64,000 nt of DNA, taken from assembly GCF_019649055.1 (NCBI RefSeq), contig NW_026570298.1, positions 434,001 through 498,000 of the forward strand, given 5' to 3'. The notes under the pieces are model-generated. The model was given only the letters and a program-made list of their open reading frames with translations. It was not told the origin of the DNA and did no database searches. Position 1 is the first letter of the stretch; each line of letters opens with the position of its first letter. The position numbers were made by a program, and so were the translations under genes. The stretch is from Paramacrobiotus metropolitanus (Eukaryota > Tardigrada > Eutardigrada > Parachela > Macrobiotidae). Positions 32,701-38,700 of the stretch are shown one piece after another.

Positions 32701-35700
32701 GATTTTTCTGTTTCTCATTTACTAGCGTATTCTATTCCTTGAATTGCATTCCAATTTTAATCTTTACTAATCATCATGTCAGCACAGCCTGTGGGGCCAA
32801 CTGGAGAGCCTCTGCCATCGCCCGAAGCGGACGCGATTGCCCACTACGAATACTGGAAGGGACGGACTCGCGAATCGGTTCAGTTTGCCATGGCGGAGCC
32901 TCTGCAGCCAGACGAAACCATCCGAAGCCGTCGACAATTGGCGATGCATACGGCAGCCCACGCGTGCATTCTTGAGGCTGACATCACGGGATCTTATGTG
33001 GACATGTCATCTATCAAGAAATTCGTTGTGGAAATGCACGATGATTTCACGGAAGAACGAGTGGATTTCTTCCTCGGCGACGCTATTAATGCTGGAATCT
33101 TGCTCAAGAAGATGAGCCGCGATGGACGTTTCGTGCTCGAAGTGGCCGAGGAAGTAAAGAATAACCGCGATCCAGAGACGAAGGTAATCGACACAACCAG
33201 CAAGTTTCGTCGGATGATTCGCGTGATCCTTTACCACGGCCGATATGCCATGTCACGCACCGAAATCCAACACTGGATCTGTACGTTCGACGTACATCTG
33301 CATGACGTAGACTACTGGCTGGAGCGCGGGCTGCGCCAACTGGTTGAAAAGAAAGATATCGTCGTCGTCTACGGGAATCTTTTCGTGGACAGTTGCATCG
33401 ACCTGTGGCTACGAAGCATTCGCGGCTGCTGTCTCTGCACCACTCTAGCCCAGACCATCAGTATGTATTACGTATTTTCGGTTAGGAAGTAGTCCACGAC
33501 AGAAATATGCGACGAATATTTGCTCTATGTGATTTGTGTGAATTTTCATTTAAAAGCAGAGTCACTCTACATGCTGCAACTTATCGTACTTTCTGTAAAA
33601 TAACGCATTTTGCAGATATCAAGATGGGCACCATGAAGGTTACAGTCAACGGAAGAGACACAGAACAGCACGTTGCCGATTGTAGCTTCGGTTACGTGGG
33701 ACAAGACGGGGATTTGGTTGTCGATGGCGTCATGGAGCGGCTGGACGCAATCGAGCCGGCAAAGAATAATACCGCCAACGTGAATTTGGTAATCCGGGCT
33801 AGCAAAGACGGACGCATTGAGCGAGAACCAATTATCACGCTCACTCAGCTGAAAGCTATGGGCGGCCGTCCGAAATATGTTGCCCCAGAGAAGAATGCGG
33901 ATGCGAAGAAGAAGAACCAGAAGACCAAAGAGAAGGCCGAAAAGCCTGACAATGAAGTGAGCACTGCAGAACCGGATGCTATTAAGAAGCCAGACGCAAC
34001 CGACAAGTTACTGGAACAGGTTGAACGCGAAAAGGATATTATGGATAACTGCAAGGCGCTGGTAAATACGCTGAAGGCTCGAGCAACCATGGATGCTAAA
34101 CATATCGCGTATATCCGTGAGGCTTTGGAACAGCGTCTTGCCAACTTGAAAACTGCGAAGGAGAATTTGGATCTGGATTAAACAGCAGTTGTAACATATT
34201 TGATGATTTCCCGCGGCTTTCTGATAATTTTGTTCTAAAATTCGGCCGACTGTTATTTCTTCCGTTTAATCTCACTCTTGTTGGTTTAATAATTCTCATT
34301 CATACAGATTCTCGTATAGTCGTTAATTATGCTGGTCGGACAGATCTTAATTTGAGATTAATTTTGGATTTATGTAACACTTTTAATAACCAGAATAAAA
34401 TCGGTGTAAAAGTATACGCAGTCGCAGCTGCAGTCAATTCCGATATAGAATGGCCAATTAACAAAGAAAAATCAAATATCGCACCCGTGAGCATGAATCA
34501 AACGGTAAAAACAATTTTAATATTCCATCCTGGGAATAAAGTTATAAAAATCACCAAAGAAAAGTAAAAAGAATGGTGAGAAACTGTTAACACTTGCAAA
34601 ATTTGTATTCACGCAGGATTGAACCTTGCATCTAGGTGGACAACTAAATCCTGCTCTTGCCCATACGCTAGCATGGCTATACCACATTTCACTTTTAATT
34701 TGGCAATCACTAGAGGCGCTGTACTACGAAAATTCACAATATAATAAAAATTCACCACTGAAGCAGCTGATAAGTTTTAAGATTTCACCACCATCATGAT
34801 CGCAGAATTCGCACCGACAACGGAAATATTTCCACAAGAGTGCCAATAAAAATATAAAAACGAAAAAGTAGGATGTCAGAAAATGCAACTTTAGATTCAA
34901 GGGGTTTGGAACCCGCAACCTTCATTGCACCTGTTGTTGTGGTTCAACAGTTCAGTGCACTACGCCACTACAATCTGCGGAGTTAAACTTTAACTTCGCT
35001 CGTCGGAAGTGACCGTAAAATTAGCGATCTCGAAGCCAACATAATGCTGCATATAGATTTAAAAATATAAAACCGAAAAAGAGGGTTTTAAATTAAACGG
35101 ATTAACTTTTAGGATTTCGAACTCTAGACTTTGTAAGAAGCGGGTCGGTATGGATTGTCAGTCTAGCCACTACGCCACAAGGTGCTCTACGCTTTAGCCG
35201 AGTTAGGCTGAACACCGGAAGCGCCATGTCGTGTATATTTAACCTGACTGCAATAAGGCACCAAACGATTAACTCTTCATCCCACAAAGGTACAAAAATA
35301 TAGGGCAGAAAAATGTAGTTTTTTAACATGCAGCATGCAACCCTGAGATTAAGACCGGCCGTTAAGGAGGTAGTACATGAGGCGAATGGCCATGATTCAT
35401 AGCCACTGAACTACGAAGTCATTCGAATACAGACAAACAGACGGCCAAGTGCAATGTTAACCATTGAGTGTGTATACAATTTTACGCCCAGCTCTTTGAG
35501 TTTAATTCTAATATTCTGGGAACTATTGTCAATACTTTTCCCAAGACGACAACAAGAATATAAAACGAAAAAAGTAAGTTTGTCAAAATTGCAAATTAGC
35601 TGTAAGGGACTTGAACCCGCAACCGTTTCATTTCCCCGTTGCTGTAGTTCAACGGTGCAAAGCACTATACTACGCTGTTCTACGACAGTAACTTTTGAAT

Positions 35701-38700
35701 TCGCTCGTCGGGGAGGAACATAAAATTACAACGGTCAACAGCAATGCATATTCGGTGTCATTACAACAGAATAAAATCCAAAAAGAAGGTTTAAAGAAAT
35801 ATGCATTACTTGTAGGGTTTTCGAACCCAGGGCCCTAAATTGACTGAGTCGTAGCGGAGACAAGACGGACAACCACTACACTACGAAGTCTCACGGTAAA
35901 AGAGCAAATTCTGAACGGTAAGAGCTGTACAAGTGTGCGCCGCTCGTTGAAAACTAATAGGAAATTAACGGTATCACACCGAATGTGTAAGTACAACCGA
36001 ATGCAAAAATTTGGACACGAAAAAGAAGGTTTTATGAAAACGCTTTTAAATTTTTAGGGATTGGAACCCAGGACCAGCAACAGGTAAACGGATTCGCCTG
36101 GTATTGTCCTCTTTACTGGACCACTCGACTACAGGAGTCGTCAACAAAAATAATACTAATAACACAGCTTGCAGAGTTCATTTTGACACCTCTCAACAGC
36201 GATTCACCCAATATTCCTTATATTAAGTCCCACAACTAAAAGTATAACGATTCATGAAATAAAAACCAAAAAGAAGGATATTTACAAAATCGCATTTTTA
36301 TGTAGACTAGAACCTCCGACCTCCAATGACGAAGCAACGGAAGCCACTACTATACTAGCGGGGTCGCTCTACGCGAAATCCTATTTAACTGGAGCGCCGA
36401 TAGCATACAATAACGGTAGTCAGTATGCCTGTGGCCTACCCACCCAAGTGACCAGCTGCATGAAAACCAGCACAACATCTCAATGGAAGTGTAGTCTCGT
36501 GCGGTCGTACGTTACACTGTTCCAAATTTACCAATAACAGCACTGGCGGTGACTACGTAAACTTTATTTATTTCGCAACTCGCATAGTAACAAGTGACAC
36601 GAGTGTCTTGCGGAACGAAACGCAAAAACCACAGTGTAGCAACTAAACAGTGTGCAACACATATGGCGAAACACAATCTGAATAAAGGAGAAAACTAACC
36701 GTAAAACAATAAAAATACAAGATAAAACGCTGCGCTAGATCTATAGTATGAGATCTCTAAAAGAGGGACATAAGTGCACAAGTAAAAGCGTGAAAGCAGG
36801 GAGATCATACGCGTGAACAATGCTTCGATGTTTCAAGCATTTCGTACAAAATGCCAAACATTCAACGACAGTGGGCAAAGTCCACCTCCAGAAGTCCACC
36901 AGATGATACCACATTAAGGAATCTTGGGAGGGAGCTTAGACACGGCCTCCTTGACAGCAATTCTCCCACGCTCGAAACGCTGCTGGGCTTCAGTGCGTTC
37001 AGCCATCTTCTGCGCCACAATCTCCGTCCAAGCTGTCACACGGTTCTCCAGCGCCTGCCTGGCCGGTTTCTTCCTCTCGCTTGCCGGAGGAGTCATGATG
37101 ATGCGAACGATTGGGAGCAAATCGCGAATTCCGCAAATAAAGCTTAAAGCAGCAGAGTTAGCGGAATTAGATCACAGTAATAGTAAATAATTAAATTTAA
37201 ATAAAAACTCATACTGGGATACATTCAGGATAGGAGTTTGACAGCCGCCCACGCTGGCGACCGCATACTTCGTAACCAGCGAAGTCCATTAACACACGGC
37301 CTACGGCAGAGCGTGTATATTGCGACAACACTTCTTAGCACCGTCAGCAATTTCGCTAGAGTGTGTATATCAAACGAATATACGCTCGGCAATTTACCGC
37401 TTTCAACACGCAAAATCCCAACTTCCACAAGCTTTTAATTCCTTTTTACAAACTACTTAAAGCCTATAAAATTACGGATCATTCCATCAGAGCAAAATTC
37501 GTGGAAAACAGAGCCATAACTGTAGGCTCGATCACAACTGGGAGGAGAGCAGAACAACACTCGTTTTAAATGCTAAAAGGCAGCAGCTATAAAATTATAC
37601 ATGATTAAGCATGTTGCGCTCAGCATCCTCAAAACACACATAAAAGGCAGGAAACAGCGAGAGATTTAAAGAAAAAGGCCCATACAGTTTAAATCATCGA
37701 GCTGTAATTTAAACACACAAACGGCCGATCAACAAAAGTCCTCACTTCCAGTAGGTGTGGGGAATGCCACGGAGAACATGGCGCTGCACTACGATGTGCT
37801 TGCGCTTCTTCTTCGGTTTCTGAGCAGTGCCGAAGTCATCATCCACCCACAGCATGTCCACAGGCAAGAATTCAATCGGATCCTTAAAATCCAGCTTGTG
37901 CTCTGCCCACCAGTCATCCACGTCTAAGTCTGGCTCTTTCCAGTCCTCGAGATTGCCAGATCCCACAGCTTTGGAATAGGCTCATCGTCCAAAGTATACA
38001 GCATCCGACCACACGAGCCTGGGCCATTATTCTCACACTCCACACAACAAAGCTCTTCTTCCATCACTCGCTTGTTGTGTTCCACCATGCGCTGATGACG
38101 CTCACGCGGAGTTTCCGGCGGGTTAAATAGGGATGGCAGACCATATTCCTTGCGCAGGCGTTCGGATGCTTCACGAAGGATAGGAGTGTCGGGATACAGA
38201 ATGAAACCGATCTTCAAGTAATACATCTGCATTTCCGACGCACGAACTTTCTCCATCTCTAAAGCCACCTGAGCCTCAAAATCCAATGGCTCGGGTTCTG
38301 TAAAATTCAAGGCCATAATTTCGGAATTAGAGAGTTTACAAAGCTCCGAAATGGAAATATACGGGCCGTCCAAAGAACGCCAAAAGTACACAAACTCGGA
38401 AATGTGTTCCTGGTTCGCCAGAACATACGCAACAGAATCAGAAAATCTGACGAACTTACGGCGCTTCTTCTCATCTTGCTCAGCACAAATCATACGCCCG
38501 CGCTCGGATTTATAAAATTCCATCTCCATTTTAAAAGAATAGTAGGTATTTAAACGAAAAAGAATGTAAATGAGAAAAGACGAGAGAGCTGCAGATCCAA
38601 ACATGAAAACTGCTGACACACTGCAGCTGTGCAGACCGGAAACAGCTGGGCAGACTGAAACTGCTACTGCCCTAACATTTGGCTACACACGGGCGGTTGG

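Follow-up and report, generated by a model that had tools for sequence, protein, structure and literature searches.

The known clusters of RNA polymerase III (Pol III) genes in retroelements come from a few mammalian retroviruses and encode miRNAs. Inside bovine leukemia virus (BLV) and the foamy viruses they are described as several short Pol III genes embedded in the retroelement (PMC4849745; PMC7693620; PMC3911700), with subgenomic transcripts that are reported to spare the genomic RNA, the genes of BLV lying, in the same account, downstream of env in a stretch devoid of significant ORFs (PMC4849745). The TMERs of the herpesvirus MHV68 are presented as eight tRNA-like Pol III units of 0.2-0.25 kb, with an A box (TRGYNNARNNG) and a B box (RGTTCRANTCC) some 30-60 nt apart, in which a vtRNA is followed by miRNA sequences (PMC6315926). 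As to LTR elements, Helenus and TRIMp3, non-autonomous and 0.3-1.3 kb long, are reported to carry in their LTRs a single tRNA-like promoter with A and B boxes, for the most part not a functional tRNA (PMC10886601). The preliminary description of the present locus, which knew of no tRNA-like array in LTR elements, has therefore to be qualified in view of the BLV and foamy virus clusters (PMC4849745) and of the single promoters of Helenus TRIMs (PMC10886601).

The DNA analysed here, a 64-kb stretch of the genome of the tardigrade Paramacrobiotus metropolitanus (the window), contains on its minus strand a complete Ty3/gypsy-type LTR retrotransposon of about 23.4 kb, recognizable from its LTRs, its primer-binding site (PBS) and the order RT-RNase H-integrase, and also endowed with a PPT and a TSD. 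It is a young element, its two LTRs differing at 1 of 574 positions. Between its gag-pol and accessory ORFs, at least 5 kb from either LTR and in a region (34181 to 37924) where the window's ORF list holds no ORF of 150 aa or more, eight units with an A box, a B box and a T run follow one another on the minus strand, which is the element's sense strand, and span positions 36369-34566 (Table 1), much as initially described.

Table 1. Features of the retrotransposon and of its array of units (positions in the window).
Feature	Position	Strand	Remarks
Whole LTR retrotransposon	28877..52252	-	23,376 bp; TSD TAAG at both ends; LTR/TSD/PBS/PPT check
5' LTR	51679..52252	-	574 bp, TG...CA; 1 mismatch in 574 to the 3' LTR
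PBS TGGCGCCCACCGG	51666..51678	-	13 nt, complementary to the CCA-bearing 3' end of host tRNA-Lys(CTT)
gag-pol ORF	40291..50904	-	3537 codons; protease, RT, RNase H, integrase; Pfam matches
U1, Pol III-type unit	36268..36369	-	A box 36357, B box 36314, T5 ends 36268; conserved in copies
U2	36020..36143	-	A box 36131, B box 36068, T5 ends 36020; the least preserved unit
U3	35780..35895	-	A box 35883, B box 35827, T5 ends 35780
U4	35568..35684	-	A box 35672, B box 35617, T5 ends 35568; U7 paralogue; unit 5 of the preliminary description
U5	35309..35425	-	A box 35413, degenerate B box 35342, T5 ends 35309
Internal copy of LTR-end/PBS junction	35210..35237	-	17/17 nt identical, then PBS-like continuation; 33-60 nt upstream of U6 A box
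U6	35076..35189	-	A box 35177, B box 35123, T5 ends 35076
U7	34863..34979	-	A box 34967, B box 34913, T5 ends 34863; unit 2 of the preliminary description
U8	34566..34682	-	A box 34670, B box 34625, T5 ends 34566; inter-box stretch most conserved
Accessory ORF	32779..33456	+	opposite strand to the element; family marker for finding sibling elements
3' LTR	28877..29450	-	574 bp, TG...CA

In each unit the B-box-like block starts 43-71 nt downstream of the A-box-like block, and a TTTTT run ends 34-60 nt past the start of the B box, which is the layout of type-2 Pol III genes, with tRNA-like spacing and a single orientation, the B box of U5 being degenerate. Measured against the strings quoted for viral Pol III genes (PMC6315926), A boxes have 0 or 1 mismatch and B boxes 0-2, with the exception of U5, which has 4. 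A regular expression joining A box, B box and T run recovered seven of the eight units on the minus strand of the window (U5 was missed) and none on the plus strand; in ten block-shuffled windows per strand it matched once or not at all. A matrix derived from the boxes of host tRNAs failed to single out the array: units scored well below real tRNAs, two sites of the window outside the array surpassed the best unit (20.3), and shuffled windows reached 16.7-25.8. What the units have in common is their boxes and T run, not their bodies, except for U4 and U7, paralogues which are about 75% alike.

Among known systems, the Pol III RNA clusters of BLV and MHV68 come nearest to the array. As in BLV and the foamy viruses, the candidate genes lie on the sense strand, outside the major ORFs. 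Whereas the transcripts of those retroviruses are described as pre-miRNA hairpins, the tardigrade units, with the box spacing and T run of tRNA genes, show no such hairpin: none is more stable than its shuffled versions (MFE z-scores of -0.90 to 1.28 for the eight units), and alifold detected neither a conserved fold nor covariation, so that no constraint is visible at the RNA level and the candidacy of miRNA hairpins was rejected. With the TMERs, as they are portrayed, the array shares the number of eight units and their A and B boxes; it differs in having no conserved cloverleaf or stem-loops, hence nothing like a vtRNA fold followed by miRNA stem-loops, and in residing in an LTR retrotransposon. 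Compared with Helenus and TRIMp3, the tRNA-like sequences are here eight and internal, in a 23-kb gag-pol element, and not in the LTR of a short non-autonomous one.

The array has 51 matches in the genome, the window included (40 of 59 candidates were scored), and none resembles a family of lone units. In an alignment of 40 rows, i.e. the window and 39 loci, boxes and terminators are the slowest-evolving columns, with mean minor-allele frequencies of.032 for A boxes,.045 for B boxes and.015 for T5 as against.103 for spacers; no circular shift of the unit mask among 1833 scored as low as the real mask, and 8 of 1833 did so when A and B boxes were taken alone. A second set, made of the window and 20 copies, gave.015,.026 and.010 for the same blocks,.030 between the boxes and.077 in spacers, and there the trailer from B box to T run, at.071, is not more conserved than spacer. 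In boxes and T5, variation is comparable to that at codon positions 1 and 2 of pol (.028 and.017, with.208 at four-fold sites, in pol pieces from 17 of the 20 fetched copies and the window). Averaged over the eight units, the conserved stretch begins some 10 nt ahead of the A box, and the strongest conservation falls on the T run, whose flanks on either side are not conserved. The terminator T runs stand at.015 against.076 for 24 other A/T runs of the spacers (p=7e-4). Loose A, B and T>=4 patterns are jointly kept in most copies that have the unit: 38/39 for U1, 23/38 for U2, 32/33 for U3, 35/36 for U4, 33/37 for U5, 35/37 for U6, 37/38 for U7 and 37/38 for U8. As for small deletions, they are no less frequent in the inter-box stretches (.174 cells per column) than in spacers (.103). 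A test contrasting internal and terminal branches depended on the tree (for boxes and T5, p=3e-5 with the spacer tree and p=.94 with that of the whole array) and was dropped as evidence of selection, since the two trees, star-like and perhaps recombining, contradict each other.

These patterns support the view that the units are kept by purifying selection acting on Pol III-type promoters and terminators. Selection on the boxes had been proposed at the outset, an idea that equal rates in boxes and spacers would have contradicted, and the boxes are indeed some 2-5 times less variable than spacers, in the 40-row as in the 20-copy comparison. The statement that the rest of the units has diverged is true when most units are compared with one another, but from one copy of the element to the next the inter-box stretch is conserved as well. 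The architecture also recurs, on the sense strand only, in six sibling loci (RT identity 69-97%), where L098 to L103 hold 3, 3, 7, 7, 3 and 3 units respectively and none on the other strand, with an average of 0.02-0.08 units and a maximum of 1 in 100 block shuffles; four of the six have no blastn match to the array of the window. In the group III pair, units display 20 differences in 350 positions and spacers 211 in 1826 (p=8e-4), the same contrast in group II not being significant (p=.16). Two distant relatives, L104 (RT 58%) and L105 (RT 41%), gave 0 units in the fetched stretches, which may lie outside the elements.

The units resemble a Pol III promoter more closely than they do a tRNA fold. 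ARAGORN, run with the bacterial code, found no tRNA gene in the 64-kb window, Rfam gave no match above gathering score in the window, and its tRNA family none at E<=10 in 34500-36600 or in the six siblings. A covariance model built from 19 host tRNAs yielded a weak signal, not an absent one: at best 10.9 bits (E 0.67) in the window, 14.0 bits (E 0.04) in the siblings and 17.6 bits (E 0.008) over 37 of the 39 fetched copies, with no group III unit matched. The preliminary description had held that poor covariance scores would count against it, and for tRNA structure this is largely what came out; the promoter reading stands. It had also noticed in two units, U7 and U4, a 6-bp stem with an 8-nt loop, which we see by eye as well, and had denied them a decoding role. 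Such features, together with the boxes and the best model scores, are what could suggest functional decoding or suppressor tRNAs, a notion that is hardly credible: scores are far under those of real tRNAs (obtained with different models), and U4, by eye, has no acceptor stem.

We can understand the array, probably, as eight independent type-2 Pol III genes, each specifying a noncoding RNA of about 100-125 nt used by the element. The A and B boxes inside each unit would be recognized by TFIIIC, with Pol III initiating some 10-12 nt ahead of the A box and terminating at the TTTTT run; both transcription and RNA ends are inferred. The products would be unstructured or loosely structured. Being separate, short and sense-oriented, they could be made without cutting or ending the element's Pol II genomic RNA, which would thus be spared. 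These RNAs may then act in trans for the element, and, more speculatively as regards their target, would most likely occupy or redirect the host's RNA-handling or small-RNA machinery. A bolder picture, which we hold to be unlikely, is that of a giant animal LTR retrotransposon lineage opposing a battery of Pol III non-hairpin decoy RNAs to the host's small-RNA or RNA-processing defence, with an internal second LTR-end/PBS site aiding 23-kb reverse transcription; its decoys would be to a retroelement what VA RNAs are to adenoviruses, or TMERs to MHV68, but would lack the folds of either.

The boxes might alternatively recruit TFIIIC, with or without Pol III, so as to block heterochromatin or organise the provirus, the RNA being irrelevant. 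tRNA genes and extra-TFIIIC (ETC) sites are reported to act as barriers, TFIIIC-bound B-box sites being capable of this (PMC12409998), multiple units would suit a boundary, and, T5 apart, no block is as conserved as the boxes. Yet a pure binding site needs no terminator, the inter-box stretch is conserved too, and ETC sites are described as being without TFIIIB and Pol III (PMC12409998), while in the present array conservation is highest at the terminator, which argues against an ETC insulator and leaves this explanation rather improbable. It is less probable still, indeed quite unlikely, that the units serve a second zone of initiation or strand transfer for reverse transcription. The exact 17-nt copy of the LTR-end/PBS junction within the array is intact in 37 of 40 rows (two are gapped, one has a single change) and present in the sibling L100, and group III elements have PBS-like TGGCGCCCCCCGG copies; it would, however, account for one spacer and not for eight units with boxes and terminator, and, by eye, it pairs with tRNA-Lys less well than the true PBS, which no unit 3' end matches. 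Nor is there support for a self-encoded primer, as once suggested, since 13 nt of the PBS fit host tRNA-Lys(CTT).

Two further proposals carry very little weight. Pol III promoters might draw the element's own integrase and favour nested insertion, as the element is a relative of Ty3, which is reported to target Pol III genes (PMC8632968); this is very unlikely, the 64 kb around the insertion having no tRNA gene according to ARAGORN (bacterial code) and self-targeting being expected to damage resident copies, yet 27 of the 40 loci give one match over nearly the whole array. Slightly less probable again is a neutral relic, tandem tRNA-derived (SINE-like) debris passively carried along: the units do resemble tRNA promoters, and U4 and U7 are mutual duplicates, but the strong column-specific conservation over copies contradicts it, and so does the fact that siblings with no blastn match to the array have kept its architecture.

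If eight such genes are expressed, their RNAs should end at the eight mapped T runs, a testable prediction in an organism for which transcriptome work has been published (PMC11191345). A conserved multi-gene battery of non-hairpin RNAs in tardigrade LTR retrotransposons would mean that retroelements recruited Pol III more than once, and for different kinds of RNA. It is also a warning that annotation of tRNA genes and RNA families can miss conserved Pol III-type genes which have no tRNA fold.

Some minor observations may be added. A nematode host was rejected: the SL1 pattern was absent, and P0001, assigned by its source to P. metropolitanus, occurs with 100% identity in this genome. Rfam snoRNA matches below gathering score, in 34500-36600 and in siblings, were treated as chance. 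An antisense action on the element was discarded, the best complementary matches (11-15 nt, E 0.027-0.51) not being meaningful. For the accessory ORF, the best Pfam match is a linker histone (E 0.058, below cut-off), 295 candidates from the protein database included no relative, and a structure predicted without alignment was unusable (mean pLDDT 46), a winged helix being an impression only. Similarity between units and host tRNAs is short and located around the boxes, at best 15 nt (U4 with tRNA-Trp, E 1e-4), and U5 has an 11-nt match to the anticodon region of tRNA-Lys(CTT) (E 0.03).

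The preliminary description placed eight Pol III-type units, all on one strand, in an LTR retrotransposon, and these units, U1-U8, are indeed found there. From A-box start to B-box start they measure 43-71 nt, and the end of the T run lies 34-60 nt beyond the B-box start. A pattern combining A box, B box and T run recovers seven of the eight on the minus strand of the window, missing U5, whose B box is degenerate. The plus strand gives no hit, and each block-shuffled window gives 0 or 1, with 10 shuffles per strand. PMC6315926 gives for Pol III TMER genes the consensus A box TRGYNNARNNG and B box RGTTCRANTCC, some 30-60 nt apart; the A boxes of the units show 0 or 1 mismatch to it and the B boxes 0-2, U5 having four. 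U4 is a paralogue of U7, the two being about 75% alike.

The element has 574-bp LTRs (TG...CA) that differ at one position, and is flanked by the TSD TAAG. Its PPT is G-rich, and 13 nt of its PBS match the host tRNA-Lys(CTT). Downstream of gag-pol there are ORFs on both strands, and the seven ORFs beyond gag-pol that were tested gave no Pfam match over cut-off; the accessory ORFs at 30103-34181, again on both strands, are without known domains. Within gag-pol, H2C2, the integrase zinc-binding domain, has a weak additional match ahead of the RT, which at E 0.0029 does not reach the Pfam cut-off; a second weak H2C2 stretch lies in the other half, in addition to the normal one.

Features of the element, its unit array and its primer-binding-like sites
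Feature	Position	Strand	Basis or context
LTR element, 23,376 bp	28877-52252	minus	LTR/TSD/PBS/PPT check
gag-pol	40291-50904	minus	protease, RT, RNase H and integrase matches
Eight units, U1-U8	36369-34566	minus (sense strand of the element)	box and T-run mapping
Internal LTR-end/PBS copy, TATACACGACATGGCGC	35210-35237	minus	spacer, 33-60 nt upstream of U6
PBS-like TGGCGCCCCCCGG	L102 ~328 and ~1628; L103 ~591 and ~1803	element sense	

Searching the 169.8-Mb, 533-contig assembly with the array gave at least 51 matches when 40 of 59 candidates were scored; one of them is the window itself, and the others are 81-96% identical. The window was aligned with 39 fetched loci, making 40 rows. The preliminary description had proposed comparing boxes with spacers across copies, and the boxes proved the less variable: A boxes have a mean minor-allele frequency of.032, B boxes of.045 and the five T of.015, as against.052 for the inter-box stretch,.084 for the part from B box to T run and.103 for the spacers. 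None of 1833 circular shifts of the unit mask is as low as the real mask inside units, and eight of 1833 reach the real value when A and B boxes are taken alone. With 20 copies and the window, the values are.015 (A),.026 (B),.010 (T5),.030 (inter-box),.071 (B to T) and.077 (spacers); in pol pieces from 17 copies and the window (20 loci fetched, three without match), four-fold sites have.208, codon position 1 has.028 and codon position 2 has.017. Boxes and terminators are therefore about as slow as the first two codon positions of pol, and spacers too evolve more slowly than its four-fold sites. In a profile by offset, averaged over the eight units with U1 shifted 3 nt later, columns become conserved from about 10 nt ahead of the A box; the conserved T run stands between unconserved flanks (.097 before,.131 after). 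Homopolymer sequence as such does not account for this, since 24 other A/T runs of at least four in the spacers average.076 (Mann-Whitney p=7e-4 against the terminators). A loose A box, B box and T run of at least four are jointly retained, from U1 to U8, in 38/39, 23/38, 32/33, 35/36, 33/37, 35/37, 37/38 and 37/38 copies. Splitting changes between internal and terminal branches (39 of the 40 rows, L046 dropped) showed boxes and T5 depleted on a spacer tree (p=3e-5) and no depletion of them on an all-column tree (p=.94); we do not rely on this test, given the star-like tree and possible recombination between copies. The LTRs of the window copy are nearly identical, yet the other copies differ from it by 6-19% in the array and four-fold pol sites are as variable as stated; the copies represent many old lineages, perhaps still active or recombining.

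A type-2 Pol III gene requires internal boxes, a start and a terminator, and a bare TFIIIC site requires no terminator. As internal boxes, a start-like edge of conservation and a conserved terminator fit the former, and a TFIIIC site would not need the last of these, we take the units as RNA genes, most likely type-2 Pol III genes for RNAs of roughly 100-125 nt, which would run from the start to the T run. Conservation of the inter-box stretch suggests that the RNA matters as far as the B box; it counts against constraint there that small deletions are no less frequent than in spacers, at.174 and.103 cells per column respectively. The trailer, from B box to T run, looks free, like a part removed or unused. 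The units are not tRNAs, in line with the preliminary description, which held that two of them probably do not decode: ARAGORN (bacterial code) found no tRNA gene in the window, and with Rfam neither 34500-36600 nor the six sibling elements had a tRNA match at E<=10. A covariance model built from 19 host tRNAs reached at best 10.9 bits in the window (E 0.67), three of its 13 matches at E<=10 falling in the array, and 17.6 bits (E 0.008) across 37 of the 39 fetched copies; host tRNAs score 58-72 bits, albeit with the Rfam model, a different one. In the siblings and two more distant relatives (L098-L105) it reached 14.0 bits (E 0.04), with 13 of 17 matches on sense-strand units or unit-like stretches of L098-L101 and four elsewhere; group III units (L102, L103) gave no match. 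With a box matrix derived from 23 host tRNAs, the units score lower than real tRNAs, and this matrix alone does not set the array apart. As to the earlier label tRNA-like, the resemblance lies in promoter-type boxes more than in a tRNA fold; the units are weakly tRNA-like, as expected from common boxes. Nor are the units hairpins, with no covariation on alignment folding, stability not significant for most units (of 100 column shuffles, 1 reached that of U7, 4 U5, 5 U8 and 7-90 the others) and single-sequence z of -0.90 to 1.28. The spacer past U7 (~34758-34852, minus) has a much stronger fold than its column-shuffled alignments (z -6.5), in contrast to six other spacers used as controls (z -0.5 to 1.1).

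Relatives were identified through the accessory ORF at 32779-33456 and the RT, and six loci adjoining that ORF were fetched: L100 and L101 (ORF 71 and 78%, RT 96 and 97% identity), L098 and L099 of group II (34% and 90% each), and L102 and L103 (ORF 30 and 31%, RT 69%), the ORF diverging more than the RT between sibling families. A similar pattern search found seven units in each of L100 and L101 and three in each of the other four, all on the sense strand of the element; there were no antisense units, and block shuffles gave 0.02-0.08 on average. Further units are discernible by eye in L098 and L102. As blastn of the array against L098, L099, L102 and L103 gave no match at E<=0.01, the architecture of the units outlasts their sequence. 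L102 and L103 differ at 20/350 sites in units and 211/1826 in spacers, a small ORF being among the latter (p=8e-4), and L098 and L099 at 8/250 and 19/320 (p=.16). Two relatives at a greater distance (RT 58% and 41%) showed no units in the stretches that follow their RT, which possibly lie outside those elements.

The array resembles the Pol III RNA genes of BLV/foamy viruses and MHV68 in promoter logic, and BLV in its placement within the element, but is without their defining RNA folds. Helenus comprises short non-autonomous elements with a tRNA-like promoter inside the LTR (PMC10886601). Among titles and abstract openings of the open-licence literature, no such array was recognised in LTR retrotransposons, and the main text of a paper on transposable elements of two other tardigrade species does not contain 'tRNA' or 'polymerase III' (PMC11071193). 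By analogy we may speculate that the unit RNAs would act in trans, most likely by tying up or diverting host factors of RNA handling or of small-RNA pathways.

The internal LTR-end/PBS copy deserves separate study, as it may be a second site of reverse-transcription initiation or strand transfer. It shares 17 identical nt with the end of the 5' LTR and the start of the PBS (E 3.5e-4 in the 64-kb window) and is intact in 37 of 40 rows, gapped in two and changed once in one. In L100 it precedes the U6-like unit; degraded copies lie upstream of the U8-like unit in L101 (19/28 letters) and, more weakly, in L098 (17/28, other best places 14-16). In group III, L102 and L103 have two PBS-like sites each in the accessory/array region, and the genome holds 17 exact TGTTGGCGCCCCCCGGT sites. 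Elsewhere in the window, a 72-nt repeat with 110-nt spacing forms two clusters, at 4143-4324 and 16588-16879.
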